The notes beneath the pieces are model-generated. The model searched no databases, was not told where the DNA came from, and was given only the letters and a program-made list of their open reading frames with translations. A DNA stretch of 44,988 nucleotides from Lysobacteraceae bacterium (GTDB lineage Bacteria; Pseudomonadota; Gammaproteobacteria; Xanthomonadales; Xanthomonadaceae): positions 1 through 44,988 of the forward strand of contig JAJTGG010000023.1 in assembly GCA_021299355.1 (NCBI GenBank), given 5' to 3'. Positions 803-36,373 of this stretch are shown piece after piece. The position numbers and the translations under genes are program-made. Numbering within the stretch: position 1 is the first letter of the stretch; each line of letters begins with the position of its first letter.

Positions 803-1117
803 TCAAATCGAGGGTGGCTCGCTTCTGCTGCGGTAGCGGGCCGTGAGATAAACGGTAATCATTACGAACAGCAGCCCGGCGGCGGAAGCGAACACCAGCG
901 GCAGTCCTTTGCCGGTATATCGGTAAAGCGCCACAGCGTAGAACAGCGAAATCGAGGAAGACACGATCCAGATCGACCAGGACCGCAGTGAAAGGTCGCG
1001 GCTGGATTTGGTGTCGATCAGTTTCTTCCACTGCGGCAGATAGGCGATCAGGGAAATCACCGGAACCGCCGACTGCAGCGTACCTGCAACCACCAGCATG
1101 TAATAGACGTCACTCAC
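803..1117 (-). CDS. Small PQ-loop (SemiSWEET-like) membrane protein
   Basis: A 104-residue integral membrane protein with three hydrophobic segments (about residues 5-25, 43-63 and 70-92). The first segment ends in YLPQWKKLIDTKSSRDLS, the proline-glutamine loop typical of the PQ-loop/SWEET superfamily, and is followed by a Ser/Trp-rich second helix (LRSWSIWIVSSS). Bacterial SemiSWEETs have about 90 residues, three helices and work as dimers in sugar transport. The substrate here is unknown and a non-transport role is possible. The listed start is GTG; an in-frame ATG lies six codons later at 1099. It sits 13 bases downstream of yajQ on the same strand, so co-transcription is likely. Confidence 0.7.
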   Translation of the reverse strand: MSDVYYMLVVAGTLQSAVPVISLIAYLPQWKKLIDTKSSRDLSLRSWSIWIVSSSISLFYAVALYRYTGKGLPLVFASAAGLLFVMITVYLTARYRSRSEPPSI

Positions 1118-1130
1118 GGCGCGCCAGCTG

Positions 1131-1613
1131 TCAGTCGCGGAAGTTCTCGAACTGCAAGGGCAGTTCGAAATCCTTGGATTTCAGCAGGGCGATTGCTTCC
1201 TGCAGATCATCGCGTTTCTTTCCCATCACCTTCAGCTTGTCGCCGTTGATCTGGGAATCGACCTTCAGTTTGGCTTCCTTGAGCGCGGCTGCGATTTTCT
1301 TGGCGGTCTTCTGCTCGATGCCGGATTTCAGCGTGACTTTTTGCTTGGCCGTGGCCAAGTTCACCTCCGGCTCGCCGATGTCCATGCAACGGGCGTCGAT
1401 GCCGCGCGCGATCAGGCGCGCTTTCAGGATATCAAGCATCTGCTGGACTTGGAAGTCGCTGGGGGCTTGCAGGGTCACCACGAATTTTTCGAGCGTGAAC
1501 GAAGCCTCCACGTTCTTGAAGTCGAAGCGGTTCTTCAGCTCGCGGTTGGCGATGTCGATGGCATTGGTCAGTTCGTGGCTGTCCACTTCGGAAACGATGT
1601 CGAACGAGGGCAT
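1131..1613 (-). CDS. yajQ: YajQ family nucleotide-binding protein
   Basis: A 160-residue protein matching the YajQ/UPF0234 family over its whole length, starting MPSFDIVSEVDSHELTNAID and ending near LPLQFENFRD. The family has two ferredoxin-like domains and binds nucleic acids or nucleotides. In Xanthomonas campestris a YajQ protein (XC_3703) is a cyclic di-GMP effector; whether this one binds c-di-GMP is inference. The start at 1613 is chosen because the family begins with MPSFD and a GGAGAATCT ribosome site sits just upstream; the open frame extends 19 codons further but that part is not family-like. Confidence 0.93.
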   Translation of the reverse strand: MPSFDIVSEVDSHELTNAIDIANRELKNRFDFKNVEASFTLEKFVVTLQAPSDFQVQQMLDILKARLIARGIDARCMDIGEPEVNLATAKQKVTLKSGIEQKTAKKIAAALKEAKLKVDSQINGDKLKVMGKKRDDLQEAIALLKSKDFELPLQFENFRD

Positions 1614-1660
1614 AGATTCTCCGGAAATAATGACGCTAGTGTGACTCGGCGGGGGAGGAT

Positions 1661-2566
1661 GTGCAATCATGGGGCATGTCCCATGATGCCAAAAACGACA
1701 ACAAACGCCGTGGCATCCTGATGATGCTGCTGGCCTGCCTGTTCTTCAGCCTGATGGATGCGGTGATGAAGGGACTAACCGCCGATTTTCCGCCCATGCA
1801 GGTCACGGCCCTGCGGGCCATGAGCTCGCTGCCGCTGATTCTGCTTTATGTACACTGGCGCGGCGCCTGGGCCTCGCTTTGGCGGGTGCGCTGGCCCCTG
1901 CATCTGCTGCGGGTCGGTCTGGGGGTGTTGATGCTGACCCTATTCATCTATGCCATCAAGCGTCTGCCGCTGACCGAGGCCTATGCAATTTTCTACATCT
2001 CGCCATTCGCCATTGCGGCCCTGTCCATCCCCCTGCTCGGCGAGAAGGTCGCCCGCGCCAGCTGGATTGCCATCGGCGTCGGTCTGCTCGGCGTGCTGGT
2101 GGTGCTCAAGCCGACCGGTACTGGGCTGGTCAGTCTTGCCGGACTGGCCATTCTTGCTGCGGCCCTATGCTATGCGGTTTCGGCCATCAGCGTCCGCCTT
2201 CTGAGCCGGACTGACAGTACCGAAAGCATGGTCTGGTGGGCGATGGCCGGCATCGCCGTGCTGGCCGGACTGTTAGCCGTTCCGGAATGGGTGCCGGTGG
2301 AACGCCGGCATCTGTTGTCCTTGGCGGGATTGGCGGTGACCGGCTTCTTCGGCCAGCTCACCATCACCGAGGCGTTCCGCATTGCGCCAGCCGCGACCGT
2401 CACGCCCTTCGAATATTCGGCCCTGGCCTGGGCGCTGGGCTTGGATGCGCTGATCTGGCAGGTCCTGCCGGAGGCGCGGGTGTTCATCGGCGCCGCCATC
2501 ATTGTTGCCAGCGGGATTTATCTGGCCCGCCATGAAGCCGGTCTGCCGGAATCGGAACGGCCCTGA
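1661..2566 (+). CDS. EamA/DMT-superfamily permease
   Basis: A 301-residue protein with about ten hydrophobic segments arranged as two five-helix EamA halves. The first half begins near residue 18 (GILMMLLACLFFSLMDAV), and glutamates of the DMT fold are present (LTEAYAIFYISPF and LTITEAFRIAP). DMT proteins are inner-membrane exporters of metabolites; the substrate cannot be read from the sequence. The frame opens with GTG at 1661 directly after a GGGGGAGGA ribosome site; an ATG at 1676 is an alternative start giving 296 residues. It is transcribed divergently from yajQ with a 47-base gap. Confidence 0.85.
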   Translation: MQSWGMSHDAKNDNKRRGILMMLLACLFFSLMDAVMKGLTADFPPMQVTALRAMSSLPLILLYVHWRGAWASLWRVRWPLHLLRVGLGVLMLTLFIYAIKRLPLTEAYAIFYISPFAIAALSIPLLGEKVARASWIAIGVGLLGVLVVLKPTGTGLVSLAGLAILAAALCYAVSAISVRLLSRTDSTESMVWWAMAGIAVLAGLLAVPEWVPVERRHLLSLAGLAVTGFFGQLTITEAFRIAPAATVTPFEYSALAWALGLDALIWQVLPEARVFIGAAIIVASGIYLARHEAGLPESERP

Positions 2567-3325: not shown

Positions 3326-4800
3326 TGTGCTTGCGGAAAGTCCCCGGGCAATACATAGAGCATGCGGTCGCGCGGGCCGGGCTTCTTGCCCTCAATCCAT
3401 TCACCGCGCTTTTCAGGTGTGATTCCGGCCTGGACCGCTTCGCCCAGAAAGCGTTCTTCGATTTCGCGCTTGAGGATGAACACGCGGCGGTCCGGGGGAT
3501 GCGCCAACTCTTCGGCCAGACTGGAATCGTAGGAAGAATCGGAAATCGGTTTCACGCGCGCGGTAAACGACACCTTTTTGATATCGGCACCGAAATACAG
3601 GTTCAGGCCGTTGCGCGACATGTCTTCAACGAAGATGATCTGTTCCGGTTTGCCCGGAAGCATCGGCCGGATGTCTTGGGCAAAGGCACGGGAGTCTTTA
3701 TCGTGATCGTCCAGGGCAACCGGTAACAAACCCTTGATAGCCAGAATCGCAGCAAGCCAAACCGCCATGGCGATGGCAGCACCACGACCGAAGGACGTGT
3801 TTTCCAGCCTGCGGCTCAGTAGCAACAAGGCCGGCACGGTCAGGCCCAGCACATACAAGGGCAGCCGCGACTGCGCCAGGCTGAACACCAACAAGGGCAG
3901 CAGGAACCAGAGCCAGAGAAACCGGCTTTGTTCACGATCGGCGACCGGTTCGGTGCTGTGTTTCCGGAAAATCGCGATGGCGAGCAGGGCGGGCAGGGTG
4001 CCGAGAAACAGGGTTGGCAGGAACTGCGTGAACGGGCCGTACCATTGGCTGTTGCGGTTGTGGGTATCCGTGGCGATGCGGGCGACCACCTCATGGCCGA
4101 GGAAATAATCGAGCAGCCCCGGATGGCGTTGAATGACCATGGCGTACCAAGTCAATCCAATGAGTGCGAAGCCGACTATGCCAAGCGGACGCAGCAGCGC
4201 GCGACCGTCGCGGTGCCAGAGCGCGAAGGCCACGATGGCCAGCAGCGGCAGCAGACCTGGCGGTCCCTTGGTCATGAACGCCAGGCCGAAGGCCCACCAC
4301 ATCGCATCCAGCCAGCGGCGGTTGCCGCCGCCGAACCGATACTGGGCATAGCAGGTCATGGCCAGCGTGGTCATGGCCGCCAGCACGGTATCGGTATTCA
4401 CCCAATTGGCGGCCAGCAGCAGCAGCGGCGAAGCCGGAATGAACAAGGCCGGCAGCCAGGGCCGTGACGGCACAAACACACGCCCGAGGCGAAAACCAAG
4501 ATAAACCAGCAGCACGAAGGCCAATGCCATCGGCAGGCGGACCGCCCATTCGTTGTGGCCGAAGGCCGCCACTGAGGCGGCAATCGACCAGTAGGTGAGC
4601 GGTGGCTTGGTGAAGTGCAGGCTGTCCTGGTTGCGGTACAGCGACAGCCAGTCATCATGCTGCAGAATCTGCAGGGCGACATTGGTGTAGCGGCCCTCGT
4701 CCGGCTCCATCAGGCCGCGGCTGCCCTGGAAGGCCAAGGCCCAGATGCCGGCCAGCAGCATCAGGCAGAGCAGGGTGTGGTTCCGGATGAATTCGCGCAT
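3322..4800 (-). CDS. ArnT-like family 39/83 glycosyltransferase
   Basis: A 492-residue inner-membrane protein with about twelve predicted membrane helices and a C-terminal periplasmic domain from about residue 370. After the first helix comes EPDEGRY (residues 32-38), the acidic pair plus Arg that marks the GT-C enzymes of the PMT/ArnT group, and FTKPPLTYW near residue 64, also typical of ArnT. These enzymes transfer a sugar from a polyprenyl-phosphate donor to lipid A or protein in the periplasm. ArnT itself adds aminoarabinose to lipid A, but no other arn gene is nearby, so donor and acceptor are open. Start ATG at 4800 follows an AAGGCGGAA ribosome site. Confidence 0.85.
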   Translation of the reverse strand: MREFIRNHTLLCLMLLAGIWALAFQGSRGLMEPDEGRYTNVALQILQHDDWLSLYRNQDSLHFTKPPLTYWSIAASVAAFGHNEWAVRLPMALAFVLLVYLGFRLGRVFVPSRPWLPALFIPASPLLLLAANWVNTDTVLAAMTTLAMTCYAQYRFGGGNRRWLDAMWWAFGLAFMTKGPPGLLPLLAIVAFALWHRDGRALLRPLGIVGFALIGLTWYAMVIQRHPGLLDYFLGHEVVARIATDTHNRNSQWYGPFTQFLPTLFLGTLPALLAIAIFRKHSTEPVADREQSRFLWLWFLLPLLVFSLAQSRLPLYVLGLTVPALLLLSRRLENTSFGRGAAIAMAVWLAAILAIKGLLPVALDDHDKDSRAFAQDIRPMLPGKPEQIIFVEDMSRNGLNLYFGADIKKVSFTARVKPISDSSYDSSLAEELAHPPDRRVFILKREIEERFLGEAVQAGITPEKRGEWIEGKKPGPRDRMLYVLPGDFPQAQ

Positions 4801-9743: not shown

Positions 9744-10979
9744 ATGCATGCACCACCCCCCGGCTCGCGGCCTGAATCCACCGAATCGCTCGCCATGCAC
9801 CGGCGCGCGCTGGCCGGACTGAACGCCTTCATGAAAATGGAAGCCGCCGGCGGCATCGTACTGGTGTTGGCCACGGTGGTGGCGATGGTGGTGGCCAATT
9901 CGGCCTTGGCTGGCGACTACCAGGCCTGGCTGAACACCCATTTCCGTATCGGCTTCGGCCATCTGGCCCTGGATAAGTCGGTCTCGCATTGGATCAATGA
10001 TGGCCTGATGGTGGTTTTTTTCCTGGTGGTCGGCATGGAGCTCAAGCGCGAGCTGGTCGAAGGCCAGTTTGCCGACAAGGCCAATATCACTCTGCCGGTC
10101 ATCGGAGCCATTGGCGGCATGGCCGTGCCAATGCTGATCTATGCCGGCATGAATGTCGGTGATCCGGCGGCGCTGCATGGGGTGGCCATTCCGGCCGCGA
10201 CCGATATCGCGTTCGCGCTCGGCATCCTGTCCTTGCTGGGCTCCCGGGTGCCGATGGCCCTGAAAATGCTGCTGTTGGCCATCGCCGTGGCCGATGATCT
10301 GGGCGCCATCATTATCATTGCGCTGTTCTATACCGATCATCTGTCGGTGGTCGGGCTGGTGACCGCCTTGGCCCTGACCGGCGTTCTGGCAACCATGAAC
10401 CGCTTCAAGGTCGCCAATCTGGGCCTTTACCTATTCATCGGCTTCCTGCTTTGGCTGGCCGTGCTCAATTCCGGGGTGCACGCCACCATCGCCGGGGTCA
10501 TTCTCGGGCTCATGATTCCCCTGGGTAAGGGCAGCAAGGACGGCTCCTCCGAGGACCTCATGCATGCCCTGCACCCCTGGGTGGCCTTTGCTATCCTGCC
10601 GATTTTTGCCTTTGCCAATGCCGGGGTGCCCTTGGCCGGTCTGGACCCGAAGGACCTGCTGGCCCCGGTACCCCTGGGGATAGCCGCCGGCCTGTTCCTA
10701 GGCAAGCAAATCGGGGTTTTCGGCTTCATCTGGGCCTGTACCCGCTTGAAAATCGCCAAGCTGGACCGCGCCATCAGCTGGAAGACCCTGTTCGGCATGG
10801 CCACCCTCTGCGGCATCGGCTTTACCATGAGCCTGTTTGTCGGCTCCCTGTCCTTCGGTCCGGAGCATGTGGATTACCAGCTCAGCCATCGTCTAGGCAT
10901 CCTGGGGGGCTCCTTATTATCAGCGGTGGTCGGCTATCTGATCCTGCGCCGGGTCCTGCCCGGACATCCCCGGGCCTGA
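9744..10979 (+). CDS. nhaA: Na+/H+ antiporter NhaA
   Basis: A 411-residue inner-membrane antiporter that exports Na+ in exchange for protons. Family landmarks are visible: ATDIAFALGILSLLG near residue 153, followed by the two ion-binding aspartates in AVADDLGAIIIIALFY near residue 183, and KTLFGMATLCGIGFTMSLF in the last third, the NhaA signature around the functional Lys/Gly-rich helices. Length fits the family (about 390-420). The start is backed by GAGG eight bases upstream. It is monocistronic; about 220 bases without a gene follow. Confidence 0.95.
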   Translation: MHAPPPGSRPESTESLAMHRRALAGLNAFMKMEAAGGIVLVLATVVAMVVANSALAGDYQAWLNTHFRIGFGHLALDKSVSHWINDGLMVVFFLVVGMELKRELVEGQFADKANITLPVIGAIGGMAVPMLIYAGMNVGDPAALHGVAIPAATDIAFALGILSLLGSRVPMALKMLLLAIAVADDLGAIIIIALFYTDHLSVVGLVTALALTGVLATMNRFKVANLGLYLFIGFLLWLAVLNSGVHATIAGVILGLMIPLGKGSKDGSSEDLMHALHPWVAFAILPIFAFANAGVPLAGLDPKDLLAPVPLGIAAGLFLGKQIGVFGFIWACTRLKIAKLDRAISWKTLFGMATLCGIGFTMSLFVGSLSFGPEHVDYQLSHRLGILGGSLLSAVVGYLILRRVLPGHPRA

Positions 10980-24173: not shown

Positions 24174-24176
24174 GCC

Positions 24177-25365: not shown

Positions 25366-26390
25366 ATCCGCAAGAAGCCCTGCAACGCATCATCGATCAC
25401 CGCGAGATCTTCCATGACGAGATGGTCGCCTTGATGCGCCTGATCATGCGCGGCGAAGTGTCCGATGTGATGACCGCCGCCATCCTGACCGGTCTGCGGG
25501 TGAAAAAGGAAACCATCGGCGAAATCACCGGTGCGGCCCAGGTCATGCGCGAGTTCGCGGTCAAGGTGCCGACCCCGCCTGGCGTCGGTCTAGTCGACAT
25601 CGTCGGTACCGGCGGCGACGGCGCGCACACTTTCAACATTTCCACGGCCGCGATGTTCGTGGCTGCTGCGGCCGGCGCCCAGATCGCCAAGCACGGCAAC
25701 CGCAGCGTGTCCTCCAAATCCGGCAGTGCCGATGTACTGGAAGCCCTCGGTGCCGACATCGAACTGACCCCGGAGCAGGTGGGCCAGTGCCTGAACCGCA
25801 CCGGCATCGGTTTCATGTTCGCGCCCAACCACCATCCGGCCATGAAGCATGTGGCGGCAGTGCGCCGCGAGATGGGCGTGCGTACCATCTTCAACATCCT
25901 CGGTCCGCTGACCAATCCGGCCAATGCGCCGAATGTGCTGATGGGCGTGTTCCACCCCGATCTGGTCGGCATCCAGATCCGCGTGCTGCAGCGTCTTGGT
26001 GCCGAACGTGCGCTGGTGGTATACGGCCGCGACGGGCTCGATGAAATCTCCCTGGGTGCGGCGACGCTGGTCGGCGAGCTGCGCGGCGGTCAGATACGCG
26101 AGTATGAAATCCATCCCGAAGACTTCGGATTGGCGATGGCCTCCACGCGCAATCTGAGGGTCGAAAATGCGGTCGAATCCAAAACCATGCTGGAAGCCGC
26201 CTTCGCGGCCGAAGCCGGTGTGGCGCATGACATTGTGGCGCTCAACGCCGGCGCCGCCCTGTATGTTTCCGGACAGGCCAAGAACATTCCCGATGGCATC
26301 GAGAAAGCCCGTGCAGTCATGCATTCGGGCGCCGCATCCGCCAAAATGCGCCAGTTCATCGACGCGACCCGGACCTTGGGCGGCCGCTGA
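25362..26390 (+). CDS. trpD: Anthranilate phosphoribosyltransferase
   Basis: A 342-residue enzyme transferring phosphoribose from PRPP to anthranilate. Landmarks: the PRPP motif [15 protein letters not shown] near residue 82, [21 protein letters not shown] near 110, and NILGPLTNP near 180. The start overlaps the trpG stop by 4 bases and its own TGA shares a base with the trpC ATG (TGATG), giving a tightly coupled trpG-D-C block. Confidence 0.96.
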
Positions 26391-27178
26391 TGGCCGATAT
26401 CCTGCAGCGCATCCTGGCCCGCAAACACGAGGAAGTCGCGCTGCGGCGCAGATACGCCACGCAGGCGCAGCTGATTGCGCGCTGCAATGACATGCCGGAG
26501 CCACGCGGGTTCACCGCCGCATTGCAGGCCAAGCGGGATGCCGGTTTGCCGGCGGTCATCGCCGAAATCAAGAAGGCCAGCCCGAGCAAGGGTGTCATCC
26601 GCGCGCAGTTCGATCCGGAGGCAATCGCCCGCAGCTATGCCGACGCCGGTGCCGCCTGTCTTTCAGTGCTGACCGATGTTGATTTCTTCCAGGGCAGCGA
26701 CATCTATCTGCGGCAGGCGCGGGAGGTCTGCATGTTGCCGGTATTGCGTAAGGATTTCATCGTCGATGAATACCAGATCTACGAATCACGCGTCCTCGGC
26801 GCCGACTGCATCCTGCTGATCGCCGCGGCATTGACCGATGCGCAGCTGCAGAGCTATGCCGGCCTGGCCCGCATGCTGCAGATGGATGTGCTGCTGGAAG
26901 TGCATGATGCCGATGAAATGGTGCGTTCCCTGCAGGCCGATTCACCGCTGATCGGCATCAACAACCGCAACCTGCGCACTTTCGAAGTGGATTTGCAGAC
27001 TACGCTGGTACTCAAGAGCGCCGTTCCGCCCGACCGCATGGTAGTCACCGAAAGCGGCATCCTGAGCCGCGATGACGTCGCGCGGATGCGCGGCAATGGC
27101 GTCGATGTCTTTCTGGTCGGCGAGGCGATGATGCGTGCCGGGGATCCGGGCGCGGAGTTGCGGCGTCTGTTCGCCTAG
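26390..27178 (+). CDS. trpC: Indole-3-glycerol-phosphate synthase
   Basis: A 262-residue TIM-barrel enzyme, the single-function TrpC without the fused TrpF domain of E. coli. Conserved: [28 protein letters not shown] with a catalytic Lys, [15 protein letters not shown] and VTESGIL. It ends the trp block; its TAG overlaps by 4 bases the stop of the clp gene on the other strand, with no room for a separate terminator. Confidence 0.95.
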
Positions 27179-27867
27179 CGGCTGCCGAACAGGATGACGG
27201 TTTTGCCGCGCGCGGTCAGCAGGTTCTTCTGCTGCAGCTGCTTGAGGACGCGACCCGCCATTTCACGCGAGCAACCGGTGATGCGAGCCAGTTCCTGACG
27301 GGATACCTTGAGTTGCATGCCGTCAGGGTGCCGGATGGCATCCGGTTCGCGGCTGAGATCATGCAGGGTACGCAGAATGCGGTTGGCGACATCCAAGTGC
27401 GCCAGACGGCTGGCCTTGCGGCTGGTTTCCAGCAGGCGCTTGGAAATCTGCGCGCCGATGGCGAACATGATTTTCGGCCCTTCCTGGAAAAGCTGGTGGC
27501 TGAACAGATAGCGCAGGAGGTCATAGCCGATCTCGGCCAGTTCGCAGGGGCCCTTGGTGCGCAACACGACTTCACGCTGATGGACTTTGAAGAACAGACC
27601 CATTTCGCCGATGAACTCGCCGGGGTTGACGTAGCCCAGCACCAGTTCGCGGCCATCCGGCTCTTAGGTGTTGATGGTCAGGGAGCCGCTGATGACGTAA
27701 AAGAGCGTGCTGGCCGGGTCACCGGGACGGAAAACATCGGTTTTCGCCGGATAGCGGTGTTTATGGGTATGGCTCAGAAAGGCACTCAGTGCGACATCAT
27801 CCATCGCCAGTTCGGTTTTCACCGGTTCGAAAGGAGCTGTTAAGGCGGTTGTGTTGAGGTCGGTCAT
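27175..27867 (-). pseudogene. clp: CRP-family regulator Clp, interrupted by an in-frame stop
   Basis: The frame reads as a complete 230-codon Clp apart from a TAA at codon 68 (bases 27664-27666). Before it: the cyclic-nucleotide fold start with YPAKTDVFRPGDPASTLFYVISG. After it in the same frame: DGRELVLGYVNPGEFIGEMG, a dimerisation helix, and a C-terminal helix-turn-helix with SRQELARITGCSREMAGRVLK. From memory, Xanthomonas Clp is also 230 residues and has Glu at this point, so GAA to TAA would explain it. In Xanthomonas, Clp responds to c-di-GMP and controls virulence genes; REVVLRTK here resembles it. The break could be a real mutation, a sequencing error, or give two fragments. The DNA-binding half could be made only if translation restarts. 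Confidence 0.85.
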
Positions 27868-27927: not shown

Positions 27928-27957
27928 GACCCATGGGACTTTCCGCGGAAAAAATGC

Positions 27958-27985
27958 TTGCATTTGGGGATAGATGTCCGATAAT
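27958..27985 (+). promoter_or_regulatory. Candidate sigma-70 promoter of speD
   Basis: TTGCAT (27958-27963) and GATAAT (27980-27985) with a 16-base spacer, about 37 bases before the speD start. It lies in the divergent gap between clp and speD. Confidence 0.5.
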
Positions 27986-28022
27986 TGCGCCTCACCGCCA
28001 CTCATATCCAAGGAATACTGCG

Positions 28023-28817
28023 TTGGTCAAGCCACTGCCCCGGTTACGCCTGCAAGGATTCAACAATCTGACGAAATCCTTGAGTTTCAATATCTACGAC
28101 ATCTGCTACGCCGCGTCGGAAGACCAGCGTCAGCGGTACATCGAGTATATCGATGAGGTCTACAACGCCCAGCGCCTGACCCAGATCCTGACCGAAGTGG
28201 CCAACATCATCGGCGCCAACATCCTCAACGTGGCGCGTCAGGATTATGATCCGCAGGGCGCCTCGGTGACCATCCTCATTTCCGAAGAGCCGGTCATCGA
28301 CAAGAAGGCTGCCGGCAAGGAACTAATTTCGGATGCCGTGGTGGCGCATCTGGACAAGTCGCACATCACCGTCCACACCTATCCGGAAACGCATCCGCAC
28401 AACGGCATCGCGACCTTCCGTGCCGACATCGACGTGGCCACCTGCGGCGTGATTTCGCCCCTGAAGGCGCTCAATTACCTGATCGAGAGCTTCGATTCCG
28501 ACATCGTGGTCACCGACTACCGCGTGCGCGGCTTCACCCGCGACATCAAGGGCAAGAAGCACTACATCGACCACAAGATCAATTCCATCCAGGATTTCCT
28601 GACCAAGGACATCAAGGCGCATTACGAGATGATGGACGTCAACGTGTACCAGGAAAACCTGTTCCACACCAAGATGCACGTCAAGGAGTTCGACCTCGAC
28701 ACCTACCTGTTTGAAGGCAAGGCCAAGAGCCTCAGTTTCAAGGACCGCCAGCGCATCGAACTGCAGGTCCGCCGTGAAATCGAAGAGCTCTACCATGGCC
28801 GCAATCTGGCCGACTGA
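28023..28817 (+). CDS. speD: S-adenosylmethionine decarboxylase proenzyme
   Basis: A 264-residue AdoMet decarboxylase of the E. coli type, supplying the aminopropyl donor for spermidine. The proenzyme cuts itself before Ser113 in [13 protein letters not shown], and that serine becomes the pyruvoyl group. Other landmarks: [37 protein letters not shown] and [14 protein letters not shown]. The start is taken as TTG at 28023 because the Xanthomonas protein begins [15 protein letters not shown], the length then equals E. coli SpeD, and AAGGA lies 9 bases upstream; the frame itself opens further upstream. Its partner speE is not in the window. Confidence 0.93.
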
Positions 28818-33334: not shown

Positions 33335-33355
33335 GCCCGGTCCCGGAATAAGGAG

Positions 33356-33538
33356 TCCTCCACCATGCCGATGCCTGCCAACGACCTTGATCCCTAGGAT
33401 CAAGTGGGTGTCGCCTTGCCGTCTTCAGGCTTTCCGCAACTCGGGCGGACATGCACACCGACGGTTCGAGCGACTCCCGGGTCGTGTTTATGGGTCAAGG
33501 GCTAATGTTGAGCACGCTGTCGAACACGGCAGAGGACG
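33356..33538 (-). ncRNA. ssrS: 6S RNA
   Basis: About 183 bases between zapA and fau on the minus strand, the place of ssrS in gammaproteobacteria. The ends pair as a long closing stem (TCCTCTGCCGTG with CATGGTGGAGGA, including G-T wobbles). The interior has recognisable 6S stretches in order: GGGAGTCGCTCG, TGTCCGCCCGAG, GGAAAGCCTGAAGACGG, GGCGACACCCACTTGATC and GGGATCAAGG, similar to E. coli CCTTGAACCAAGGGTTCAAGG. 6S RNA mimics an open promoter and inhibits the sigma-70 RNA polymerase holoenzyme in stationary phase. Ends are approximate to a few bases. Confidence 0.88.
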
Positions 33539-34093: not shown

Positions 34094-34182
34094 GACCATA
34101 CCCTAGATGGCAATGCCGGCTTCGTCAAGCCTGCGCCGTTACCCAGCCGTTTGCTACACTAGGCGCAAAAAGGAGCGGCCGG

Positions 34183-34739: not shown

Positions 34740-34740
<1 letters not shown>
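34183..34740 (+). CDS. ygfB: YgfB/UPF0149 family protein
   Basis: A 185-residue protein of the YecA/YgfB family: AELHGALSGCLCAG near residue 25, VDWCQGFLGGFG near residue 105, and an acidic C-terminal half ending in VCEYIRVAAVLLYNE. In Pseudomonas aeruginosa YgfB interferes with the AlpA antitermination activator; elsewhere its role is unknown. AGGAG lies 7 bases upstream of the start. It shares one base with the pepP start (TGATG), the conserved ygfB-pepP pair. Confidence 0.9.
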
Positions 34741-35906
<1,166 letters not shown>

Positions 35907-35907
<1 letters not shown>

Positions 35908-35937
35908 AAAAATCCCCGCTGCGGCGTGGATTTTTTT
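35907..35937. terminator. Terminator between pepP and holC
   Basis: AAAAAATCC...GGATTTTTT arms around a GC-rich CCGC/GCGG inner part, with A and T flanks, serving both convergent genes. Confidence 0.7.
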
Positions 35938-36373
35938 ACATCTCGTTGCGCTTGAGTTCGTGTCCGAGCTTTTTGTACTCCAGCCAACGCTGGCGTGCCG
36001 GTTCGCGCGCCGCTTCATCGGCCGGAACAATTTCCAGTACGCGTTGGTAGCCGGCCGGCGGCAGCACATTACGCAGATTGATGACCAGCGCCCGCATGCC
36101 GGTCTCCACACCCGGCGGCACGATCAACAACGGGGTGTCGTCCATGTCTTCGTCTTCCTCCATGCCCACGATCTGGTGCGGAATAAAGGCGTCCTCATCG
36201 AACTCCCAGAGCAGGTCGTCGAGAAAATCGGCCTGCTCGGCGCTGTCGCAAAAGATCAAGCAGGGTTGCCCGGACTGCACCGCTTTTTCGGCCAGCTTGC
36301 ATACCAGCAGCAGGGGCTGCGCCACGAACGCGGGCTTGCCCGCGATCATGTAGAAGTCAGCCCGGATCGCCAT
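35936..36373 (-). CDS. holC: DNA polymerase III chi subunit
   Basis: A 145-residue HolC protein: it starts ADFYMIAGKPA, then LLLVCKLAEKAVQSGQPCLIFC, FDEDAFIPHQ and LINLRNVLPP-type segments, and the LEIVPADEAAREPARQRW ending. Chi links the clamp loader to single-strand-binding protein. It lies 2 bases after pepA, the usual pepA-holC order; valS, which commonly follows holC, is not present here. Confidence 0.9.
   Translation of the reverse strand: MAIRADFYMIAGKPAFVAQPLLLVCKLAEKAVQSGQPCLIFCDSAEQADFLDDLLWEFDEDAFIPHQIVGMEEDEDMDDTPLLIVPPGVETGMRALVINLRNVLPPAGYQRVLEIVPADEAAREPARQRWLEYKKLGHELKRNEM

Follow-up and report, generated by a model that had tools for sequence, protein, structure and literature searches.

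An in-frame stop codon in the clp gene of an Arenimonas metagenome bin from which most c-di-GMP turnover genes have been lost

The interrupted clp gene and its surroundings

The stretch of DNA that we analysed (44,988 nucleotides, referred to as the window) makes up contig C74 of G000. This genome is a metagenome bin of 1,658,816 bases in 74 contigs, with a completeness of 85.21% and a contamination of 0.71%. The kin of this genome is Arenimonas, not Xanthomonas, and its closest relatives are two genomes of 2.1 Mb (G001) and 2.0 Mb (G014). Where G000 and G001 align, most blocks have a DNA identity of 90-96%. The clp gene of the window has 31 base differences to that of G001 and 94 to that of G014, compared to 84 differences between G001 and G014, which makes G000 and G001 sisters.

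The gene of interest lies on the minus strand between positions 27867 and 27175, where 67 sense codons are followed by a TAA, 162 further sense codons and a TAG at 27177-27175. A single TAA at positions 27666-27664 thus takes the place of codon 68 and splits a 230-codon gene of the Clp/CRP type into pieces of 67 and 162 codons. The features at this locus are as follows.

27664..27666, minus strand: in-frame TAA at codon 68 of the Clp/CRP gene, from the frame reading and the alignment of relatives
27667..27867, minus strand: upstream piece of clp, ATG and 66 further codons, holding the start of the cyclic-nucleotide-binding domain
27175..27663, minus strand: downstream piece of clp, 162 codons and the TAG, holding the remaining nucleotide-binding domain with R98 and E99, the dimer helix and the HTH domain
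27175..27642, minus strand: possible restart frame from a GTG (codon 76), 155 aa, putative
26390..27178, plus strand: indole-3-glycerol phosphate synthase (trpC), a convergent neighbour that overlaps the end of clp by 4 bases
27933..28817, plus strand: S-adenosylmethionine decarboxylase, a neighbour divergent from clp

A sequence-only reading of this DNA had described the gene as a Clp-type regulator of 230 residues that carries an in-frame TAA at codon 68 and no other lesion. Our reading of the frame, including the peptides flanking the stop, agrees with this, and the gene has the same length of 693 bases in the window, G001 and G014, with no frameshift. The two pieces match the profiles PF00027, PF00325 and PF13545, the upstream piece staying under the PF00027 cut-off. 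The alignment of the downstream piece with PDB 3iwz, a 'catabolite activation-like protein' of 230 residues that we take to be the Clp of Xanthomonas, covers residues 69-230 and has no gaps. These family matches and this alignment also support the assignment as a Clp-type regulator. The CRP/FNR architecture, i.e., a cNMP-binding domain and a Crp-type HTH, is present when the pieces are scored apart, and the whole frame was scored against PF00027. Against NF008732 (cAMP-CRP), which has an equivalog cut-off of 266 bits, the pieces scored apart reach 45 and 226.5 bits. The signature residues R98-E99 are retained in the remainder of the gene in the window and in both close relatives. With its coding frame interrupted, the locus is a broken clp gene, and a search for a further PF00027 match in the 85% complete bin found none at E 0.001.

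Intact copies of clp are present in the close relatives. We aligned codon 68 in 105 rows, three of which are the window and its copies; the other 102 include duplicate entries for some genomes and, at the distant end, sequences that are just CRP-like. Among these 102, a stop occurs in none and Glu in 77, which agrees with the residue that the sequence-only reading had given for this place. In the family as a whole, a Clp match at E 1e-30 was found in 288 of 297 genomes, and in 267 of the 268 genomes with at least 90% completeness and at most 5% contamination, such that a broken copy is a rare thing. Among the matches listed for the 297 family genomes, only the window's own row has a stop inside the gene. 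For a second reduced member of the genus, G015 (1.5 Mb, 74% complete), the best Clp match was a distant one (E 7.7e-6), and yet it carries 13 GGDEF domains; its incompleteness may be the cause.

The window harbors a second broken gene, which became apparent from the alignment to both relatives.

34740..36050, plus strand: aminopeptidase P gene, frameshifted

Compared to both relatives, it has suffered a 137-base deletion near 35446-35465, as a result of which the reading frame shifts beyond codon 242 and most of the M24 domain is lost. The window was also scanned against Rfam and for tRNAs, and a 6S RNA (33353-33538, minus strand, 103.8 bits) was all that was found.

Loss of c-di-GMP turnover genes

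The domains that make and degrade c-di-GMP are few in G000. In the 27 genomes of the genus that were searched, it has two GGDEF domains, whereas the 26 other members have 9-45 (15 in G001 and 13 in G014). EAL domains over the cut-off number zero in G000, as compared to nine in G001, eight in G014 and 6-14 in seven relatives, and what is left of them is two remnants below the cut-off, both of which sit at deletion junctions.

L110 (contig C3 of G000), 4464-4598: EAL remnant of 45 residues
L155 (contig C32 of G000), about 10533-10655: EAL remnant of 41 residues

The other domains related to this messenger differ less, with one HD-GYP (HD_5) versus 0-3 in relatives and one PilZ versus 1-3. As controls, we counted response regulators (21 in G000, 28 and 28 in the two closest relatives, 16-38 across the seven relatives), HATPase domains (12, as against 17 and 18, and 11-27 across the seven) and the ATPases of type II/IV pili and secretion (5, as against 4 and 4). 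Two-component genes thus still amount to about 67-75% of the numbers in the closest relatives, and a loss of signalling in general was rejected; a loss of pili was likewise ruled out, since the pilus/secretion ATPases are retained. By a binomial calculation at 85.2% completeness, the incompleteness of the bin would leave two or fewer of 15 GGDEF domains with a chance of about 1.3e-9 and none of nine EAL domains with one of about 3.4e-8, whereas for at most 21 of 28 response regulators the same calculation gives a chance of 0.11.

The missing genes can be traced to their places. At nine sites in G000, GGDEF/EAL genes have been excised, 11 genes in total, and at each the flanks are collinear within one contig, which shows that the losses are deletions and not missing contigs. 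Together with the binomial test, these flanks rule out bin incompleteness as the cause of the missing GGDEF and EAL domains. One of the sites lies in the window, 6.3 kb from clp.

34118..34131, no strand: clean deletion junction, from the alignment to G001, where the sisters carry a PAS-GGDEF-EAL gene

The gene that is lost here encodes 729 aa in G001 and 725 aa in G014, and when the site is aligned to G001 by BLAST, the two flanks share the 14 bases of the junction. The eight further loci are L122, L110, L156, L166, L117, L155, L172 and L199, and in the last of these three neighbouring c-di-GMP genes are lost together. G014 also carries the gene at eight of the nine events, which places the loss on the branch of the window; the direction of the deletions was set by G014 for these eight. 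In the alignments to G001, five of the nine deletions have flanks with 7-16 shared bases, which fits deletion between short repeats, while the remaining four retain 11-77 bases that do not align. Two further gaps (L189 and L207) also hold GGDEF genes, but they were compared with G014 only and are outside the nine.

The deletions have fallen on c-di-GMP genes far more often than on others. G001 has 16 such genes (15 with GGDEF and one with EAL alone), of which three (on C145, C130 and C52) were left unplaced in G000. Among the testable ones, 11 of 13 are deleted and two are intact in G000, whereas 18 of 171 other genes are gone (Fisher's test, 1.5e-8), in a comparison in which 13 of the 23 stretches of G001 were picked for holding c-di-GMP genes, genes were called by a crude codon score, and 146 other genes and one c-di-GMP gene were left out as untestable. 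The loss of c-di-GMP genes at syntenic sites in this lineage is specific to it and goes beyond what the incompleteness of the bin accounts for.

Other genes, too, are missing from G000 relative to G001. At window positions 24176/24177 and 24707/24720, single genes are absent, namely an ORF of 291 aa for a GNAT acetyltransferase and one of 328 aa that is glycosyltransferase-like; as the contig of G014 stops short of both sites, these may be losses in G000 or gains in G001. Elsewhere, at L169, L157, L172 and L174, what is missing comprises a MoxR-type AAA ATPase together with a TgpA-like transglutaminase, a glycosyltransferase, a short-chain dehydrogenase along with OmpW, a gene of 192 aa that has no Pfam match, and a type III pantothenate kinase of which about 63% is gone.

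As to the enzymes that are left, the two retained cyclases (on contigs C52 and C24) are single-domain GGDEF proteins with intact GGEEF motifs. The retained HD-GYP is a response regulator (L115, contig C8 of G000, 1018-2205, minus strand) with the motif SHQEKWDGSGYP, while the other two HD-GYPs of G001 have YHHE. We take HHE to be the usual motif of this domain, and G001 thus has two HD-GYPs of the usual kind. The counterpart of the retained protein in G001 has the same unusual motif, so that decay of the G000 copy was ruled out as its explanation. For the two HHE-type proteins of G001, no match was found in the 85% complete bin: at the place of one (C86 in G001) G000 carries other, unaligned sequence, and the location of the other (C64) lies beyond the end of a G000 contig. 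A phosphodiesterase may be encoded in the about 15% of the genome outside the bin.

How the stop may have arisen

The TAA is present in the assembly, and the organism probably carries it as well. Since the gene has one stop and is otherwise intact, either the lesion is young or the base is wrong, and the sequence-only reading, which had named a very recent event or a base-call error, is in keeping with the intact and conserved rest of clp. The main rival to a real mutation, which we consider unlikely, is that the clp gene of the organism is intact and that one base of the consensus is wrong. What speaks for such an error is that a single base is concerned in a gene otherwise whole and under constraint, and that the stop is known from the assembly consensus alone, in a binned metagenome of 74 contigs. 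The assembly, however, is not rich in errors: among 140 genes of G001 (50,235 codons) traced into those parts of G000 that were sampled, the sole clear internal stop, i.e., one with the coding pattern of substitutions on both flanks, is that of clp. An error would furthermore have to hit, as the only stop of this kind, precisely the c-di-GMP effector in a genome stripped of c-di-GMP enzymes, which would be a coincidence.

This contrast between clp and the remaining genes is seen from several sides. Against G001 there is one ambiguous stop (L201, codon 18), and against G014 (93 genes, 32,662 codons) clp stands out again, the other stops being few, ambiguous and close to gene starts (L189 codon 28, L191 codons 8 and 95, L205 codon 41), where ambiguous means close to the 5′ end or within a poorly aligned start. 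In the reverse control, 146 genes (51,563 codons) followed into G001 had stops at ends or in non-coding frames only, and the same held for 102 genes (35,233 codons) in G014, save for one ambiguous case (L110 codon 48). A first pass had given 16 stop-bearing genes including clp, but in the others the stops fell upstream of what is probably the true start, or in non-coding frames, and a general decay of the assembly was therefore rejected.

The youth of the lesion would also fit a polymorphism, in which the stop is one allele and intact clp alleles exist alongside it in the sampled population; strains are merged in metagenome-assembled genomes, which makes such a situation conceivable, and we regard it as improbable. 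The earlier statement was that the strain, if the stop is real, lacks full-length Clp; the source of the broken frame is a metagenome bin and not a strain. The substitution rates give little further guidance. Relative to G001, clp has a dN/dS of 0.24, which places it 120th among 124 genes, and this value is high mainly because dS is low; dN is larger than that of clp in 47 of the 124 genes, so that relaxed selection on clp could not be decided from this measure. Rows with genes misaligned through indels or a wrong ORF were left out of the dN/dS analysis. Six residue changes fall on the branch of the window, three on that of G001 and two are undecided, and with so few changes decay, if there is any, must be young.

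Two further possibilities would leave the gene with a function. Translation might restart at the GTG of codon 76, the first in-frame start, from which a frame of 155 aa with intact dimer helix and HTH is open, or at the ATG of codon 134, ten bases downstream of an AGGAAGG, with a predicted product of about 97 residues. The result would be a DNA-binding Clp blind to its ligand; by the domain borders that we assume, the product from codon 134 would consist of the dimer helix and HTH and lack the ligand domain. However, a purine-rich site is absent before codon 76, the AGGAAGG is also found in the intact gene of G001 and thus is no adaptation, and half a beta-roll would be unlikely to fold, such that we give this possibility very little credence. 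Recoding or programmed read-through of the TAA, as might be invoked from the open frame on either side of it, we regard as next to impossible: TAA terminates 27 of 109 intact genes as checked by G001 and 16 of 71 as checked by G014, which shows it to be an ordinary stop that is not recoded, and none of the 102 aligned rows of relatives has a stop at this codon.

We put the probability at roughly 0.6 that the TAA is a real, recent mutation that inactivates Clp and that it is part of the dismantling of the c-di-GMP network. The Clp of Xanthomonas binds its target DNA without ligand and is inhibited by c-di-GMP, which takes it off the DNA (PMC3528676; PMC10333796), and a review gives E99 as the signature of the c-di-GMP-binding group of Clp proteins (PMC10333796). 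The Clp of Arenimonas, judging from its residues, would likewise be a reader of c-di-GMP. After the split from G001, the lineage deleted most of its c-di-GMP enzymes in many separate events; what it retains are two single-domain cyclases and one HD-GYP of unusual motif, and none of its EAL domains is whole. With cyclases found and an ordinary phosphodiesterase not found, the signal is perhaps permanently on, and since the bin lacks most of the writers and every ordinary eraser, Clp would be stuck in one state and a stop in it would be cheap. A signal that is no longer modulated would mean that Clp carries no information, such that selection on it would lapse and a stop be tolerated. The collapse of the network would thus probably have come first and the loss of the effector after it.

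This order is the opposite of the earlier proposal, in which the loss of Clp was expected to alter c-di-GMP output. Cause and effect are probably reversed there, as G000 would already have been without most of its c-di-GMP enzymes, and the collapse-first order appears to fit the evidence better. The enzyme losses and the stop are correlated within a single genome, which is all that links them, and the two cyclases with intact GGEEF motifs may mean that c-di-GMP is still made and that Clp could still matter. We regard as tentative, and on balance doubtful, the further-reaching proposal that a lineage not bound to a host is in the midst of giving up c-di-GMP signalling, with at least 11 turnover genes removed in at least nine deletions after the split from G001, two cyclases retained but no ordinary phosphodiesterase found in the bin to switch the signal off, Clp permanently off the DNA, and the clp gene freed to mutate. 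In such an abandonment, the enzymes would have gone first, by deletion, and the reader last, by a stop.

Relation to known systems

The Clp proteins of Xanthomonas and Lysobacter have, like the gene described here, 230 codons with R98 and E99, and Clp is near-universal in the family. The copy in the window differs from them in being interrupted at codon 68, and the binding of c-di-GMP by the Arenimonas protein is a prediction.

In aquatic bacteria, genome streamlining is associated with small genomes and the loss of regulatory genes, and G000 resembles these organisms in that it is small and has lost regulatory genes. However, G001 and G014 are not much larger and yet have 15 and 13 GGDEF domains, so that size alone is no explanation. 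Among the literature matches listed, we found no plainly equivalent loss of c-di-GMP genes in streamlined or free-living bacteria or in metagenome-assembled genomes of Arenimonas.

The new element here is a dismantled c-di-GMP network around a broken clp; the observation of the stop is confirmed, and its earlier interpretation is supported in part. The contrast between G000 and G001 amounts to a fine-grained natural experiment on how, and in what order, a second-messenger network is dismantled, and on whether its reader and its writers are lost together. If the stop is true, this pair of genomes makes the role of c-di-GMP in such bacteria testable, and it is a warning against attributing a changed c-di-GMP output to a stop of this kind.

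The closest parallels come from pathogens. According to one account (PMC10333796), the c-di-GMP network is strongly eroded in Shigella, and Yersinia pestis has lost two phosphodiesterases; both are host-bound, and their losses arose through pseudogenes, promoter mutations and insertion elements. What G000 has in common with them is that many c-di-GMP turnover genes were lost in one particular lineage, which in those pathogens followed a change of lifestyle. It differs from them in that it belongs to an environmental genus, in that the genes were mostly removed cleanly and nearly whole, and in that the damage extends to the transcription factor by which the signal is read.
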